Part shown: one piece after another, positions 4,006 to 31,804 of the stretch
Numbering within the stretch: position 1 is the stretch's first letter
Layout of the letters: each line of letters starts with the position of its first letter
Virus record (IMG/VR): IMGVR_UViG_3300021468_000006
Span: 1-32,733 of that record
Strand: one strand, 5' to 3'
Length of the DNA stretch: 32,733 nucleotides
Source of the DNA: a virus
Position numbers and translations under genes: made by a program
Notes under the pieces: generated by a model
Databases searched by the model: none
Seen by the model: only the letters and a program-made list of their open reading frames with translations
What the model was told of the DNA's origin: nothing

Positions 4006-4689
4006 ATGACAACAGCAACGCTGCCGAAACCGAAGTTGGCGCAGTTGCGATTGAGTGAACTGGTGCTGGACTGGGACTTGTACCCTCGGCAAAACGTTGA
4101 TAGCCAGCACGTAGGCAATCTGTGCGATGCGATTCGCGGGGGCGCCAGCCTGCCGCCGATCATTGTCGATGCCAAGAGCAAGAGAGTTATTGATGGTTTC
4201 CACCGTTACCGTGCCTTTCGGCGGGAATTTGACGGCGACCCCGTCATAGGCGTGGAGTTGCGCGAATATGCCAGCGACCGCGAGATGCTCCTGGATGCGA
4301 TACGGCTTAATGCCTCTCATGGTCGTGCACTTACCAAACAGGACAAAACGCGGTGCCTGTTGCTGGCAAAGAAATATCGCGTGGCAGTCAAAATGGTAGC
4401 GCAGGCATTGTGCATGCGGCCGAGTGATATCAAGGCGCTGGCCGAAGGCAGAGTGGCTTCCAGCAAAAGTGGCAGGCCGGTGCCGCTCAAACGCGGCCTG
4501 GACCACCTGGCTGGTGCTACTTTGACGGACGAACAGATAGATGTGCTGCCGAAGTTGTCGGGGATGCCGGCCACTTTTCATGCCAGGCAGTTGATTTTGT
4601 TGATCGAAACCGGGATGCTGAATACAAGCGACGCGGATACAATGGAAGTGTTGCGTGAACTGTACTGTAAACTTGAAACAGTTATTTGA
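4006..4689 (+). CDS. ParB/Srx-fold DNA-binding protein
   Basis: This 227-residue protein has the ParB N-terminal fold: LSELVLDWDLYPRQN, then PPIIVDAKSKRVIDGFHRYRAF (residues about 50-72), where the GxHR segment is the nucleotide-binding/catalytic box of ParB-like CTPases and nucleases. A helix-turn-helix follows (about 115-150). A strong AGGAGG site precedes the start, 13 bases after the Cas12-like gene, so the two are probably co-translated. The protein may act in phage DNA partition, as a transcription regulator or as a nuclease. Its place between effector and array raises the possibility of a link with the CRISPR module, which is inference. Confidence 0.75.
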   Translation: MTTATLPKPKLAQLRLSELVLDWDLYPRQNVDSQHVGNLCDAIRGGASLPPIIVDAKSKRVIDGFHRYRAFRREFDGDPVIGVELREYASDREMLLDAIRLNASHGRALTKQDKTRCLLLAKKYRVAVKMVAQALCMRPSDIKALAEGRVASSKSGRPVPLKRGLDHLAGATLTDEQIDVLPKLSGMPATFHARQLILLIETGMLNTSDADTMEVLRELYCKLETVI

Positions 4690-4872
4690 CGGCCACTGCC
4701 GGGCCGAAGCCGGACACGGCCGCAATGCCCAGCGCGGCGGCACGGTCCGGGAACGCTGTGAAGAGCCGGGGATATTCCCGCACGGGACAGCCCCCGGGCT
4801 CTTCGGGAATGCCGGTTTGTGGAGTACGAATCCTGCGCAATCCCAAGGATTGGAATGAGTTAAGGAGGTTCA
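4690..4872 (+). ncRNA. CRISPR leader and possible tracrRNA
   Basis: No credible gene lies in these 183 bases. They are rich in structure, including a stem of about ten pairs formed by AGAGCC plus GGG (about 4763-4771) and CCC plus GGGCTCT. Bases 4803-4812 (TCGGGAATGC) are perfectly complementary to positions 16-25 of the CRISPR repeat, and G-U pairs extend this to about 13 pairs. A second stretch, CCTGCGC 4832-4838, a small hairpin AATCC-CAA-GGATT, then GGAATG 4852-4857, can pair with repeat positions 30-36 and 17-22 in the right order for an anti-repeat. No clear promoter is seen. Because the repeat is itself self-complementary, part of this may be chance or a decayed repeat. Confidence 0.4.
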
Positions 4873-5290
4873 GGTGTGCTCACCGCTGCATTCCCGAGGG
4901 AGCGCAGGCATCCCCGCTTGGGTCCAACGGTGGAGCGTGGTGTGCTCACCGCTGCATTCCCGAGGGAGCGCAGGGTGTTCACTGGTCACTTGCAGATAGT
5001 GTTCGGTGTGCTCACCGCTGCATTCCCGAGGGAGCGCAGGGGCTCAAGTTAACTCTTGGATGAAGCGGTGGTGTGCTCACCGCTGCATTCCCGAGGGAGC
5101 GCAGGGGCCACGAAAACAGGAGTAGAGCATGACCGGTGTGCTCACCGCTGCATTCCCGAGGGAGCGCAGGAGCGGCTTGCTCTTGATCGGAAGCGCGCGG
5201 TGTGCTCACCAGCGTATTCCCGAGGGAGCGCAGGACTTTCAAATGGGGTATCAAGTGCGCTTACTTGGGTATTCCCGAAGGAACGCAAGG
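4873..5290 (+). CRISPR. CRISPR array, 7 repeats of 36 bases
   Basis: Repeats start at 4873, 4939, 5005, 5070, 5135, 5199 and 5254. The first five are identical: GGTGTGCTCACC, then GCTGCATTCC, then CGAGGGAGCGCAGG. The sixth differs at a few central bases and the seventh is strongly degenerate and one base longer, which marks the downstream end, so the leader is upstream. Spacers are 30, 30, 29, 29, 28 and a shortened 19 bases, all different, with no convincing match elsewhere in the window. Each repeat can form two hairpins: GGTG-TGCT-CACC at its 5' end and CTGC/GCAG enclosing TTCC-CGAG-GGAG at its 3' end. It runs in the same direction as the Cas12-like gene. No adaptation genes are present. 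Confidence 0.95.
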
Positions 5291-26241: not shown

Positions 26242-26259
26242 CTTTGCGCCGCGTTCTGC

Positions 26260-26318
26260 GGTTAGAGCGCGTCCCTGATAAGGACGAGGTCCGAGGTTCG
26301 AGTCCTCGTGCGCCCACC
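26260..26318 (+). other. attP core: 3' part of a tRNA-Ile(GAT) gene
   Basis: From GGTTA of the D loop onward the sequence is a canonical tRNA: D-stem GAGC, anticodon stem CGTCC/GGACG with loop CTGATAA (anticodon GAT), variable loop AGGTC, T-arm CGAGG-TTCGAGT-CCTCG, acceptor TGCGCCC and A, then CC. The acceptor 5' strand and D-stem 5' strand are missing and replaced by unrelated bases. Tyrosine integrases often use such 3' ends so that insertion restores the host tRNA. It lies beside the excisionase-like and integrase genes. Confidence 0.8.
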
Positions 26319-26387: not shown

Positions 26388-26416
26388 TTGACAAAAAACT
26401 AAGCCGTGGCTTATCT
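26388..26416 (+). promoter_or_regulatory. excisionase-like gene promoter with operator
   Basis: TTGACA (26388-26393) and TTATCT (26411-26416) are 17 bases apart. The spacer and -10 box contain the palindrome TAAGCC-GT-GGCTTA (26400-26413). The start codon lies only about 8 bases after the -10 box, so the transcript is leaderless or nearly so if this promoter is used. Confidence 0.65.
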
Positions 26417-26424
26417 TGGGAGGC

Positions 26425-26631
26425 ATGAGCGTGACGATTCAACCAACGGAACCGCTGTTTTCTGTGCGTGAGGCCGCTGCTGCGCTTGGAGTTACCCCCG
26501 GAAGGATTCACCAATTGGTGCTTGCGGGCCGCATTTCTGCCATTAAACCAGCACGCGACTTGCTTATCCCGAAATCGGAAGTCGAACGCTATCGGCGAGA
26601 TAGACGGCCATATCGTAAGTCTAATCGCTGA
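26425..26631 (+). CDS. excisionase-like HTH protein
   Basis: This 68-residue protein has the winged-HTH of the excisionase/MerR-like family (FSVREAAAALGVTPGRIHQL; AISAIKPARDLLIPKSEVERY), then a basic tail. Such proteins bend attachment-site DNA or repress promoters. Its location next to attP and upstream of integrase supports a role in excision control. ATG 26425 is leaderless; GTG 26431 with GGAGG seven bases upstream is an alternative. Confidence 0.78.
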   Translation: MSVTIQPTEPLFSVREAAAALGVTPGRIHQLVLAGRISAIKPARDLLIPKSEVERYRRDRRPYRKSNR

Positions 26632-26671: not shown

Positions 26672-26700
26672 TTGACAAAAACTAGGCCACGACTTAGAAT
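26672..26700 (+). promoter_or_regulatory. strong integrase-leader promoter with same operator motif
   Basis: TTGACA (26672-26677) and TAGAAT (26695-26700) are exactly 17 bases apart. CTAGGCC and ACTTAG in the spacer form an imperfect palindrome (26682-26697) matching the half-site CTAAGCC of the previous promoter. It starts a long structured leader of about 220 bases before the integrase ATG. Confidence 0.72.
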
Positions 26701-26745
26701 CTCTCCTTGCTGAAATCCCGAGCACTCTGGCCGGCTGGCGGCCCG

Positions 26746-26781
26746 GGTGCTCTCACCGGCAGGTTCCCGAGAGAGCGCAGA
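26746..26781 (+). other. solitary CRISPR-repeat-like element in the integrase leader
   Basis: This 36-base stretch matches the array repeat at about 27 of 36 positions without gaps. GGTG-CTCT-CACC keeps the first hairpin with a changed loop, and TTCCCGAGAGAGCGCAG differs from the repeat at one base of 17. It lies about 40 bases after the predicted transcript start. Upstream, GAGCAC (26720-26725) and GGCCG can pair with its 5' part. There is only one copy, so it is not an array. Confidence 0.7.
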
Positions 26782-26822
26782 AGACGGACCGACGGCTATG
26801 GCGGGCCGGCGAAGAATAATGG

Positions 26823-26929
26823 ATGGTGCCCACGGAGCGGTGCGGGCTGTACGTCAGGGGCCGCTCCCACAGCAGCAGGAGGCCGCCAAGGGGCGGCCAC
26901 ACTCTGATGCTGCTGTGAGGTGGCACCAT
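26823..26929 (+). promoter_or_regulatory. three-helix structured leader covering the integrase start
   Basis: Four perfect or near-perfect helices nest together. ATGGTGCC plus AC (26823-26833) pairs with GT plus GGCACCAT (26920-26929), covering the start codon. GGAGCGG (26834-26840) pairs with CCGCTCC (26861-26867). CACAGCAGCA (26868-26877) pairs with TGCTGCTGTG (26908-26917), and inside it GGCCGCC pairs with GGCGGCC around AAGG. The ribosome site GAGG (26917-26920) is largely shut within the closing stems. This looks like a translational switch. Confidence 0.65.
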
Positions 26930-27833
26930 GAGACTTTCGGAGCTTCTCGAACTCTATCTGCGCACCCGCCAGCTTGCTCCGGGCACGATCTCGGCGATCC
27001 GGCGGGCGGTGCGCAAAATCGGCGAAGTGCTGGGCGATCCGTCATTGACCTCGCTGAACGAGGTGCAAATCTACAGGCTCTACGCTGTTTTGTGCGACCA
27101 GGGCCAGGGGCAGGCAGCCACACAGGCCGTGCTCAAGTGGCTGCGCGCGCTGCTCAACGAGGCCTGGAGACTGCGGCTGATCGACGAACTGCCGAGGACT
27201 TGGCCAAAAGTGGTACAGCCGCGGCGCATGCCCGATGCGTGGACGCCGCAGCAGGTCGGTCGACTGTATCATGTGGCCGTGGAACAGCCCGGGCGGATCG
27301 GCCCGCACAGGGCCGGCGACTGGTGGCGGGCGTTCTTGTGCGTCTCCTGGGATACAGGCCTGCGGGTCTCACAGACCATGAGCCTGCGCCTGGAGGATGT
27401 GGACTTCGACCGGCGCTTCTTGCTGGTGCGCTATCGGCCGAACAGCAAGAGCATCAACGACCAGATCAAACCGCTTTCCACGCCAACGGTCGAAGCGGTG
27501 CGGACGATCGCCAGGCCGCGGCGCGAGCGACTTTTCGAGTGGCCCGAGTGGCCGCGCTCGCGCCGGGATTTCTTCTCCACGTTTCGCTACCTGTGCCTGC
27601 TGGCCGGCATCCCCTGTCCGCGAAACCAGCACGGCGAACTTACACACAAGCTCAGGCGCAGCAGCACCACGATGGCTGCACTAAAAAGCCTGGAAGAGGC
27701 ACGCCGGCACGCCGGGCACACGCGTGTGGAAACCACGCTGCGCCACTACGTGGACCCGCGCGTGGCGGCGCCTGGTTCACCGGCAGTGCCGCCGCTGGAA
27801 AAGCTCAACGGCAGGCAAAAAACACTGTTCTGA
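26928..27833 (+). CDS. int: tyrosine recombinase integrase
   Basis: This 301-residue protein has an N-terminal SAM-like core-binding domain and a catalytic domain with Arg146 (DTGLRVSQ), Lys174 (PNSKSI), His240 and Arg243 (LTHKLRRSS), His264 (HAGHTRVETT) and the nucleophile Tyr274 (LRHYVDPR). It lacks a long N-terminal arm-binding domain, so it is on the short side for phage integrases. It should recombine attP with the host tRNA-Ile gene. Its start lies inside the structured leader. Confidence 0.92.
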   Translation: MRLSELLELYLRTRQLAPGTISAIRRAVRKIGEVLGDPSLTSLNEVQIYRLYAVLCDQGQGQAATQAVLKWLRALLNEAWRLRLIDELPRTWPKVVQPRRMPDAWTPQQVGRLYHVAVEQPGRIGPHRAGDWWRAFLCVSWDTGLRVSQTMSLRLEDVDFDRRFLLVRYRPNSKSINDQIKPLSTPTVEAVRTIARPRRERLFEWPEWPRSRRDFFSTFRYLCLLAGIPCPRNQHGELTHKLRRSSTTMAALKSLEEARRHAGHTRVETTLRHYVDPRVAAPGSPAVPPLEKLNGRQKTLF

Positions 27834-27858
27834 AAACTATCGGCGCGGCGGATAGTTT
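27834..27858 (+). terminator. possible weak terminator after integrase
   Basis: AAACTATC and GATAGTTT form a perfect 8-bp stem with a 9-base loop starting at the integrase stop codon. Only a short TTTGT follows, so termination would be partial. Confidence 0.4.
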
Positions 27859-27912
27859 GTCCGGTCCAAGTGTACCTCCAGAAAGTCCTCTCTTTCCCGG
27901 GGCGGTCCCGGG

Positions 27913-27991
27913 GCCGCCGCGCCGAAAATGCCGCTCAGGAAGGCGTGCCACGCCCGGCCTGCGCCAGCCGGTTCGAGTCCGGCGGGCGGCA
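27913..27991 (+). other. tRNA-like 3' half downstream of integrase
   Basis: GCCGG-TTCGAGT-CCGGC is a perfect T-arm followed by GGGCGGC and A, like a tRNA 3' end. A partly matching 5' strand (GCCGCCG, six of seven pairs) lies 71 bases upstream, but no normal anticodon arm can be drawn. It may be a decayed tRNA, a second attachment-site relic or chance. Confidence 0.35.
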
Positions 27992-28117
27992 CTGCTCCAC
28001 ACGTACCCGTGTTTCCGGCGGGCGGTCCGCCGGCGGATTTGGCGACAGTCCCCATGCCTCGCCCGGCCAACCAAAGCCTGGTGCCGGGTGACGCTGCCCC
28101 TGGCGCCCGGGCCGGTG

Positions 28118-28423
28118 ATGCAGGATGCCCTCCAGGATGCGCCGGCCCGGGCGCTTTTCAAGGTGAACAACGTGAACATCTTCGAGCATATCCTCCTGCA
28201 TGGAGATACTGTTGGATTTCATCCTCAACCTGCCAGCGCGCCGACCACTGCTCGGCCTGGCACACCGGAGAAGATTGCGGTCCTGGCTGCCAGGGCGCAG
28301 GCCGGTGAAGAACTCTGGCACCCAGATGATCCGGTGATCGAATGGGAGCCTGCCAGCTCGGAATCAATATCGTGGTTGCACTGGTTTCGCATGCACAGGA
28401 GAGTGCCTCAAGCACGAAGATAG
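28118..28423 (+). CDS. small hypothetical protein
   Basis: About 101 residues with GTPEKIAVLAARAQAGEELW followed by HPDDPVI, a pattern that reads as a real conserved domain. Start uncertain: GTG 28088 is an in-frame alternative and no clear ribosome site is seen. Position after the integrase suggests an early regulatory or accessory role. No function can be given. Confidence 0.5.
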   Translation: MQDALQDAPARALFKVNNVNIFEHILLHGDTVGFHPQPASAPTTARPGTPEKIAVLAARAQAGEELWHPDDPVIEWEPASSESISWLHWFRMHRRVPQARR

Positions 28424-29450: not shown

Positions 29451-30323
29451 ATGAGTTGGATGGTACCACCGCAGTTCCTGGCGATCGATATCGAAACGAT
29501 CGCCGGCGAGCCGACCGAGGCCGAAGAATGGATGCGAAAGAGCTGGTCGCCCAGTCCGAAATGGAAACCGGCCACGATCGGCAACCGCTTCCTGGAAGCC
29601 TACGAGAAAAAACAGGAACAACTCGCTTTGCTCGACACGGCGCCGATCATCACCGTGGCCATGCGCACCGAGGCCGATTGCCGGGTGATTCACCATTTGC
29701 CGGTCGGCGATCAGCAAGTTGTGGGGGCGAGGCTGGAACAGACGGCCGACCAGGCTGCAATGCTCCGCCGCGTGCGAGACTACCTGGATCAGTGCACGCC
29801 GGAGACGGTGCTTGTCGGGCACAACATCCGGCACTTCGACCTGCCGAAACTCCGCCATGCCATGATCCGTCACGACGTGCGCCTGCCGCAGTGCCTGGTG
29901 TGGCACGACCAGCCGCTGTTCGACACGATGATCGAGTGGAACCGCTACACGCTTGATGAGCGGCCGATGATCTCGCTCAGCGATGTGCTGGATGCCTGCG
30001 GGCTACCGAATCACAAGCGGGTGATCGAAGGCGCCTTCGTGCCTGAATTGTATCAGCAAGGCCAATACCAGACGATTCTCACCTATGCGGTGGCCGACGT
30101 AGTGGCCGAATGGAACCTGTTTTTGCGAATGACAGGTCAGGCTGGCGACACATCGCTTGATTCCGGCCGGAAACAGCCGCCCAAGGTGATGGACAACTCT
30201 CCGGGCAATCCCACGCCCATCTGTCCGGCGGCCAGGGTGGTCGGTCCGCCCATTCGCCTGCCGGACGATGCGCAGGCCGCCGATGGCAATATTGACGCTC
30301 TTGTCAAGGAGTTCGAGCAATGA
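29451..30323 (+). CDS. DnaQ-like 3'-5' exonuclease
   Basis: The 290-residue protein has the DEDD motifs: FLAIDIET (Asp13, Glu15), LVGHNIRHFDLPKL with the second Asp, and a third Asp in YAVADVVAEW. It removes nucleotides from 3' ends during repair or recombination; a predicted 3'-5' polymerase-type exonuclease fold fits. The last 60 residues are a Pro-rich tail. AGGAG precedes the start and ATGA couples it to the SMC-like gene, so the pair probably works on DNA ends together. Confidence 0.82.
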   Translation: MSWMVPPQFLAIDIETIAGEPTEAEEWMRKSWSPSPKWKPATIGNRFLEAYEKKQEQLALLDTAPIITVAMRTEADCRVIHHLPVGDQQVVGARLEQTADQAAMLRRVRDYLDQCTPETVLVGHNIRHFDLPKLRHAMIRHDVRLPQCLVWHDQPLFDTMIEWNRYTLDERPMISLSDVLDACGLPNHKRVIEGAFVPELYQQGQYQTILTYAVADVVAEWNLFLRMTGQAGDTSLDSGRKQPPKVMDNSPGNPTPICPAARVVGPPIRLPDDAQAADGNIDALVKEFEQ

Positions 30324-31804
30324 ACCAACAAAGAACCATCCGGCTCGAAAACGTCGGGCCTATCGACAGGCTTTCCATCCCGCTGCCTGACGCCGGCGTG
30401 GTGGTGCTTCGCGGGCGCAACGGCGCTGGCAAATCGCACGCCCTGGCGGCCGTGGATTCTCTCATTGGCGGCCGGGGCAGGCCGCCATGCAAAGACGGGG
30501 CCCGCAAGGGGCTGGTCGAGGGTGTAGGGGCAAAGATCACGATCGGACGAAGCACCAGACGGACCGGTGAAGCTGAAGTCGTAACCTTGGAAGGTCGGCT
30601 TGATATTTCGCAACTGGTGCAACCGCCCATCAAAGACGAAGAAGCGGCCGACCGCCAGAGAATCAAGGCCTTGATACAGCTCTCTGGACAGCCGGCCGAC
30701 GCAGAAACATTCAAGCCCATCTTACCGCCCGAGGTCGAAATTGGCGAGCTGGTCTCAGTAACCGACCTGAAGCGTGACGATCCGGTCACCCTGGCCGGCA
30801 AGATCAAGCGGGCTCTGGAGGCCGAGGCCCGCCGGCACGAGAAGGCGGCCGAGAACCTCAATTCCAAAGCGGCTGGCCTGCAAGCGGAGATAGACGAACA
30901 TTCGATATCGCTGAACCTCGATCGAAAAACGACCGAGGCGGAACTGCAGGCCGCTTTGGTGGCCTTGAAGGAACTGGAAACTCGGGCCGAAGAGTCCCAA
31001 AGGCGACGCTCGCAGGCGGAAAAGGCCAGACAAACTTTGGAACAGCTTCGTTCCAAGCAACCGGCCGATCAATCGATCGAGGCCTTGGAGGCCGAAGAAA
31101 CGAATCTGGACGAGAAGATCGAAAAGCTGCAACGGGCCCTGGCCGTGGCCCAAGAGCGGCGTCATCAGGTACGTCGGCAATTGGACCAGGCCCGACTTGT
31201 GCAGTCGCAGATCAAGCAGCTTGAAGAAATCCTTGCCGAAGTGCCCGAGGCCGTGCCTCCTGACCAGATTCTTGCAGCCCAGGATGCCGTAGCCGAGGCC
31301 CAGCTACGGCACAATCAGGCGATCGAGGCTGAACGATTGCGAGACCTGAAAGCGCAGGCGGATCAATACCGCGAGTCGGCCGATAAGGCAGCGGCGGAGG
31401 CCGAGAGATTCCGAAATGCGGCCCATGCAACCGATGAAGTTCTGAACGAACTGGTAAGCCACGTGACCAGCAAGCTGCATGTGGAAGGCGGCCGGTTGGT
31501 CTGCCATACGGATCGTGGCATCGAACCATTCTCGGAACTCAGTCCCGGCGAGCGGTGGCGGGTGGCTTTGGAAATTGCCCTTGAGCAGGTGGGCCACGGC
31601 GGATTGGTCACCGTGCCCCAGGAGTGCTGGGAAGGTCTTGATCCGGTCAATCGCGCGGAAGTGGCGGAGATCGCCCGCAGTGTGGGCGTGGTGATTCTCA
31701 CAGCAGAGGCAGACGAGAAGGAACACATCGAGGCGATTCCCTTCGATCCTCACCATCGTGAGGCTCGGGCAGCGGCGGAGGCCGTAAAGGAGGGGCCGAG
31801 ATGA
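30320..31804 (+). CDS. SMC/Rad50-like ATPase
   Basis: Walker A GRNGAGKS (residues 32-39) begins an ABC-type head, followed by two coiled-coil stretches (about 155-250 and 300-380) and the signature FSELSPGERW (about 404-413). The Walker B segment reads TVPQECWEGLD: where most relatives have Asp-Glu, this has Gln-Glu, so catalysis may be altered. No zinc hook is seen. It is smaller than Rad50 and likely acts with the exonuclease in phage recombination. Confidence 0.78.
   Translation: MNQQRTIRLENVGPIDRLSIPLPDAGVVVLRGRNGAGKSHALAAVDSLIGGRGRPPCKDGARKGLVEGVGAKITIGRSTRRTGEAEVVTLEGRLDISQLVQPPIKDEEAADRQRIKALIQLSGQPADAETFKPILPPEVEIGELVSVTDLKRDDPVTLAGKIKRALEAEARRHEKAAENLNSKAAGLQAEIDEHSISLNLDRKTTEAELQAALVALKELETRAEESQRRRSQAEKARQTLEQLRSKQPADQSIEALEAEETNLDEKIEKLQRALAVAQERRHQVRRQLDQARLVQSQIKQLEEILAEVPEAVPPDQILAAQDAVAEAQLRHNQAIEAERLRDLKAQADQYRESADKAAAEAERFRNAAHATDEVLNELVSHVTSKLHVEGGRLVCHTDRGIEPFSELSPGERWRVALEIALEQVGHGGLVTVPQECWEGLDPVNRAEVAEIARSVGVVILTAEADEKEHIEAIPFDPHHREARAAAEAVKEGPR

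Follow-up and report, generated by a model that had tools for sequence, protein, structure and literature searches.

A lone CRISPR repeat unit in the integrase leader of a temperate phage that encodes a predicted nuclease-dead Cas12f

Degenerated CRISPR repeats that lie outside an array and guide repression are an established class, represented by CreA of the CreTA modules and by the scaRNA of Francisella novicida (PMC9458426). Several other systems come close to the locus described here. Solitary repeat units of phages, or Racrs, act as RNA decoys (PMC10651486). TldR proteins are phage-encoded, nuclease-dead TnpB repressors (PMC13418256). Cas12m, the type V-M effector (PMC11013384), is a protein of about 600 aa that works without a tracrRNA, binds without cutting and blocks transcription. 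Finally, in the type II-A system of Streptococcus pyogenes, tracr-L diverts a CRISPR RNA component to gene regulation by serving as a natural single guide on the cas promoter (PMC11417352).

The window (the whole stretch of 32,733 nt that was analysed) is a temperate-phage contig with genes for terminase, portal, capsid, tape measure and integrase (Table 1). Ahead of the integrase gene lies a single 36-nt unit, the lone unit, that resembles the repeat of the phage's own CRISPR array. Like CreA and scaRNA it is a degenerated, ectopic repeat that stands apart from the array and would be expected to lead an effector to a partly matching site and so repress transcription. Those RNAs work with type I-B Cascade or with Cas9 in the cell, whereas here a dead Cas12f would be supplied by the phage together with its own tracrRNA; and, unlike them, the lone unit is fused to the leader of the integrase mRNA and yielded no target in the phage and its relatives. 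With the Racrs it shares its form and position, that of a single intergenic repeat on a mobile element, just 3' of a promoter. Racrs, however, mimic the repeats of host systems in elements that have neither associated cas genes nor an array, whereas the lone unit mimics the array repeat of its own phage, in which effector, tracrRNA and array are all present. The effector resembles TldR in being an RNA-guided protein of the TnpB/Cas12 superfamily that is encoded by a phage and appears to have lost RuvC activity. TldR, with a guide RNA of its own, does without a CRISPR array; the window contains an array and a tracrRNA besides the single ectopic unit, and its effector is closest to Cas12f (PADLOC, Foldseek), which places it outside the TldR group. 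The mode of action of Cas12m, binding without cutting and a block to transcription, is also predicted for the window effector, which differs from it in being Cas12f-like, in its smaller size and in having a tracrRNA. The diversion of a CRISPR RNA component proposed here recalls tracr-L, except that a repeat in an mRNA leader would meet a separate tracrRNA. By analogy, then, the lone unit would work most like CreA and scaRNA, is positioned like a Racr, and shares with TldR a phage-borne, presumably dead RNA-guided protein.

Table 1. Position of the CRISPR-related module, the integrase leader and neighbouring genes in the window.
Feature	Position	Strand	Evidence or remark
Cas12f-like effector, 397 aa	2799-3992	+	PADLOC Cas12f 6.3e-15
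ParB-like protein	4006-4689	+	PHROG ParB-like 1.3e-9
tracrRNA (predicted)	4690-4832	+	conserved 5' part 4690-4799; anti-repeat ~4796-4832
CRISPR array	4873-5289	+	seven repeats: five identical, 36 nt, GGTGTGCTCACCGCTGCATTCCCGAGGGAGCGCAGG; sixth variant (5199); last degenerate (5254)
Second palindrome copy	26399-26414		in upstream promoter; 15/16 to query
Excisionase-family HTH protein	26416-26631	+	TIGR01764 9.8e-9; HTH_17 2.9e-9
Sigma-70-like promoter of leader/integrase transcript	26672-26700	+	TTGACA-17-TAGAAT; 11/12 consensus
Palindromic operator-like element CTAGGCCACGACTTAG	26682-26697	+	within promoter spacer; 14/16 to query
Leader hairpin GAGCACUC...GGGUGCUC	26720-26752	+	whole-leader fold from 26700 and tracrRNA co-folds
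Lone CRISPR repeat unit GGTGCTCTCACCGGCAGGTTCCCGAGAGAGCGCAGA	26746-26781	+	36 nt
Candidate guide AGACGGACCGACGGCTATGGCGGGCCGGCG	26782-26811	+	30 nt, 3' of lone unit, by analogy with 28-30 nt array spacers
Tyrosine integrase, 301 aa	26928-27833	+	PHROG integrase 2e-26; XerA/XerD-type families

The lone unit is identical to the array repeat at 27 of 36 positions, the figure given in a first-pass annotation of this DNA, and is the best non-array match to that repeat in the whole window. Equal matches at many unrelated sites would have deprived the likeness of meaning; the runner-up site reaches just 21/36, and 300 dinucleotide shuffles reach at most 25/36. The block of 17 bases with one change to which the annotation had drawn attention (TTCCCGAG[G/A]GAGCGCAG) is also present, appearing in the lone unit as TTCCCGAGAGAGCGCAG; used as a DNA pattern on viral contigs, it returned only six unrelated coincidences. 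Unit and array lie on the same strand. A position matrix was built from the array repeats of the window and of a related phage, L013 (see below), with the lone unit excluded. It assigns 33.7 bits to the unit, 15.1 to the next site and no more than 20.2 to any of 400 shuffles, the Gumbel p in the whole window being about 3e-6 with both repeat sets, 5e-6 with the L013 repeats alone and 7e-5 with the window repeats alone. Beyond the 36 nt, the flanks of unit and array have no significant likeness. A joint duplication of the array leader and the first repeat was considered and rejected, the upstream similarity not being significant (p about 0.1).

Of the two hairpins said to be kept in the unit, the 5' stem GGUG/CACC can form but the outer 3' stem CUGC/GCAG is gone, and the unit folded by itself forms another stem, which runs end to end. 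The isolated hairpin matters less than pairing, a tracrRNA being used (see below). The separation of unit and array is 21 kb, as annotated, on the linear contig. No terminal repeat of at least 10 bases was found in the contig; the gene order of the two relatives suggests, as an unproven reading, that the map is circularly permuted and opened in the early region, in which case the two may be some 10.8 kb apart on the same strand. An AAA gene, at 30320 in the window, lies near the effector module in both relatives. The Rfam scan of the window returned tRNA only; a tRNA-Ile at 26247-26318 may be the att site. A 558-aa open frame (26747-28423) begins within the lone unit and spans the whole integrase gene in another frame; it matches no Pfam family and is probably a by-product of GC-rich DNA.

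The location claimed for the unit, in a leader behind a strong promoter, is borne out by the near-consensus promoter and by the non-coding leader that separates it from the integrase start. The latter point follows from an in-frame TGA 12 nt ahead of the integrase ATG, because of which the leader cannot be integrase coding sequence. A promoter search of the region gave two sites against 0.3 expected, the second, at 26388, lying ahead of the excisionase-family gene (whose ATG is probably at 26425). Both promoters, that of the excisionase-like gene and that of the integrase, contain the palindrome CTAAGYCGTGGCYTAG; all other sites in the window match the palindrome query at 11/16 or fewer positions, and the palindrome is likely to be the operator of a common repressor. 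A separate observation concerns array spacer 4 (5106-5134), the first eight bases of which, GGCCACGA, match 26685-26692, between the -35 and -10 elements of the integrase promoter and inside the palindrome. The match could reflect self-regulation of the integrase; coincidence over all guides is estimated at roughly 2% for it.

The effector gene lies in a small module with those for the ParB-like protein and the tracrRNA and with the array, whose spacers are 28-30 nt long except for the final one, of 19 nt. The structure predicted for the effector (pLDDT 65.6, a moderate confidence) retrieves Cas12f proteins as all its top Foldseek hits in the PDB, with E values down to 6e-16. In an alignment with Cas12f 9nzq, the RuvC-I motif GVDMG is replaced by FVMPG (Asp to Met) and the RuvC-II motif MED by WLD (Glu to Leu), and the protein ends ahead of RuvC-III. 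The same Asp and Glu are lost in the effectors of the related phages L013 and L002. The protein is thus most likely a DNA-binding, non-cutting derivative of Cas12f, and its nuclease-dead appearance fits regulation rather than cutting. The NCBIfam TnpB model matches it as well, under its cut-off; bacterial relatives were not retrieved with the patterns used. Set against subtype V-F, the locus has a Cas12f-related effector, a repeat array with unique spacers and a predicted tracrRNA with an anti-repeat, and lacks the active RuvC nuclease.

With the ParB-like protein next to the effector as query, a scan retrieved L013, in a viral contig of 65 kb (G002). Its effector is 80% and its ParB-like protein 77% identical to those of the window, and its array, homologous to that of the window but shorter, has two repeats (GGTGGGCTCACCGGCACGCTCCCAGGGGAGCGCAGG) followed by a third that is degenerate. 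L002, a contig of 41 kb, has an effector of 45% and an adjoining ParB-like protein of 46% identity, in the order effector, two-copy 40-nt hairpin repeat, ParB-like gene. In each of the three phages, the ParB-like protein stands beside the dead Cas12f; it occurs also in phage contigs in which no effector was found (L014, L015 and L016). The "array" of L002 (L002:11366-11478), beside the ParB-like gene, is made of two near-perfect 40-nt hairpin copies around one 33-nt spacer, and may represent either a mini-array or a site of parS type; it is preceded by CGGGGATATT, a sequence that occurs also in the tracrRNA of the window.

The tracrRNA, which the first-pass annotation had missed, makes the lone unit plausible as a guide. 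Its region is non-coding, between the ParB-like gene and the array. The first 110 nt are identical to L013:4960-5069 at 106 positions (96%), against 75% identity in the DNA of the effector region, an unusual conservation between the two phages; no further viral contig searched contains an exact copy of its 19-mer GGACACGGCCGCAATGCCC. Pairing of the anti-repeat extends over the full array repeat (-40.4 kcal/mol, computed), and repeat and anti-repeat covary between the phages, with GGGAA/TTCCC in the window and GGGAG/CTCCC in L013. The lone unit pairs with the tracrRNA of its own phage at -43.2 kcal/mol, as against the -40.4 of the array repeat, and more weakly, at -37.0, with that of L013. When nine random changes are made in the array repeat, 0.2-0.4% of the mutants pair as well as the lone unit does, and among permutations of the unit's own changed letters, 0.2-1.5%. 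The change from CTGCA to GCAGG, which looks disruptive in a gapless alignment, merely shifts a two-base bulge: the array repeat reads CCG-CT-GCA-TTCCC and the lone unit CCG-GCA-GG-TTCCC, the L013 repeat being built like the lone unit but with CTCCC.

Co-folded with the leader in its full length of 224 nt, the tracrRNA invades it at a net -12.5 kcal/mol, compared with -7.6 to -9.1 for array units, and the candidate guide region is mostly freed. As a control, random 106-mers gave a net mean of -6.2 (sd 3.2, minimum -17.9) against -14.0 for the leader segment. Raw duplex energy discriminates weakly, unrelated GC-rich sites reaching -40.8, and the same scan in L013, with a longer anti-repeat, failed to rank that phage's own array first; as a means of finding lone units in GC-rich DNA, tracrRNA duplex energy alone was discarded as too noisy. 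The energies are therefore supportive, not decisive, and the mutant controls and the specificity with respect to the relative carry the weight. Computed in this way, the lone unit is compatible with the resident CRISPR machinery, pairing with its own tracrRNA at least as well as the array repeats do. Two other arrangements were not retained. A natural single guide, with tracrRNA and repeat fused in the leader, was rejected: the leader does not contain the conserved 5' part of the tracrRNA, and a separate tracrRNA is thus needed. A minus-strand reading of the unit as a second anti-repeat is disfavoured by the full-length plus-strand homology and the plus-strand promoter.

The explanation that we favour, if tentatively, is that of a genuine ectopic repeat of old origin, whose fit to the tracrRNA has been maintained and which acts as a one-unit crRNA-like RNA for the nuclease-dead Cas12f of the phage. 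Leader RNA would be made from the promoter at 26672, to judge by its consensus. In the computed folds the leader opens as the tracrRNA pairs with the unit, which would leave most of the next 30 nt or so free. The duplex would then be bound by the dead Cas12f, probably after RNase III-type trimming, and the complex, guided by approximately 26782-26811, may bind DNA, most likely at a phage or host promoter, and repress without cutting. A guide cut from the integrase leader would have its production tied to integrase transcription. In this model the repeat, its compatibility with the tracrRNA, the promoter and the dead effector are computed features, from which we infer transcription, loading and targeting. 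The comparison with L013 speaks for an old repeat. Used as a query on the window, the L013 repeat matches the lone unit and the window array equally (28/36 each, over a background of 23). Of the 28 positions common to the array repeats of the two phages, the lone unit keeps 24; of the eight at which these repeats differ, three agree with its own phage, in the TTCCCGA core opposite the tracrRNA, and four, those forming the moved bulge, agree with L013. Being about equidistant from the two arrays (27/36 and 28/36), the unit is no recent derivative of the local one. Judged on sequence, it is a true member of the repeat family, an old repeat and not a fresh copy. The likeness to scaRNA and CreA proposed in the first-pass annotation stands as far as these features go, the repeat being truly ectopic, the effector Cas12f-like and apparently dead, and the pairing with the phage's own tracrRNA kept and even slightly improved. 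As to the guide target, a search with 26782-26811 gave no match above chance in the phage or related phages: only matches of 10-12 nt, at chance level, were obtained, the best prefix match (10 nt, at 30557) being inside a gene. Neither the guide nor the spacers found a target in phage records and the other sequences searched. Also against this explanation are the lack of such a unit in the two related phages and the engagement of the 5' half of the unit in the hairpin specific to the leader.

The absence of a guide target and the position just ahead of the integrase would both be accounted for by a second, rather unlikely explanation, control of the leader in cis. Here the repeat would be a docking site on the integrase mRNA, bound by the tracrRNA with the effector (or by the tracrRNA and RNase III) in such a way as to alter folding, stability or translation, and the sequence 3' of it would guide nothing. 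The lone unit does lie within a long leader that is more structured than its shuffles (z -3.1); the integrase start region is folded in a stem, and the tracrRNA reshapes the repeat region in co-folds. The stem at the integrase start, however, is far from the repeat and unchanged in the co-fold, and the literature searched offers no closely comparable case that involves a type V effector.

It is unlikely that the unit is a functionless relic, left from a former array or a recombination event and slowly decaying, although nine of its 36 positions differ, no second repeat accompanies it, the last repeat of the array is likewise degenerate, and, along with a guide target, a counterpart in the relatives is missing. 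The unit was found in neither of the related phages G001 and G002, which share the module but not this integrase leader; G001 has an integrase of 31% identity only and G002 none, and no close relative of the integrase was found in viral contigs and phage records. Against mere decay, the unit pairs with the present-day tracrRNA as well as array repeats do, which random change manages in 0.2-1.5% of cases, and the lack of significant homology past the 36 nt leaves no trace of a larger duplicated segment.

A Racr-like function, in which the RNA would soak up the Cas12f effector or the tracrRNA of a host or rival element with the same repeat family, is quite improbable. Solitary repeat units 3' of phage promoters do act in this manner, including against type V-A systems (PMC10651486), but the matching system here is the phage's own, in cis, and neither a bacterial relative of the effector nor a host system with such a repeat was identified in the search. 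Chance resemblance is scarcely credible: the sequence is GC-rich and the duplex-energy test alone not decisive, but matrix p values of about 3e-6 to 7e-5 in the window with three repeat sets, and the selection of the same site at 28/36 by the L013 repeat as an independent query, speak against it.

Ectopic repeats that turn an effector into a regulator are known for type I systems and for Cas9; the literature searched contains no case with a tracrRNA-dependent dead Cas12f in a phage, and none in an integrase leader. The window and its two relatives define a small phage module made of a dead Cas12f, a ParB-like protein, a highly conserved tracrRNA and a short array. It is possible, if doubtful, that the integrase mRNA leader of a temperate phage has come to include a guide RNA and that, through the tracrRNA, the state of integration directly reprograms the phage's own non-cutting Cas12f as a repressor of phage or host genes. 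If this is true, it becomes possible to test whether phages make CRISPR-derived effectors part of the lysogeny decision.
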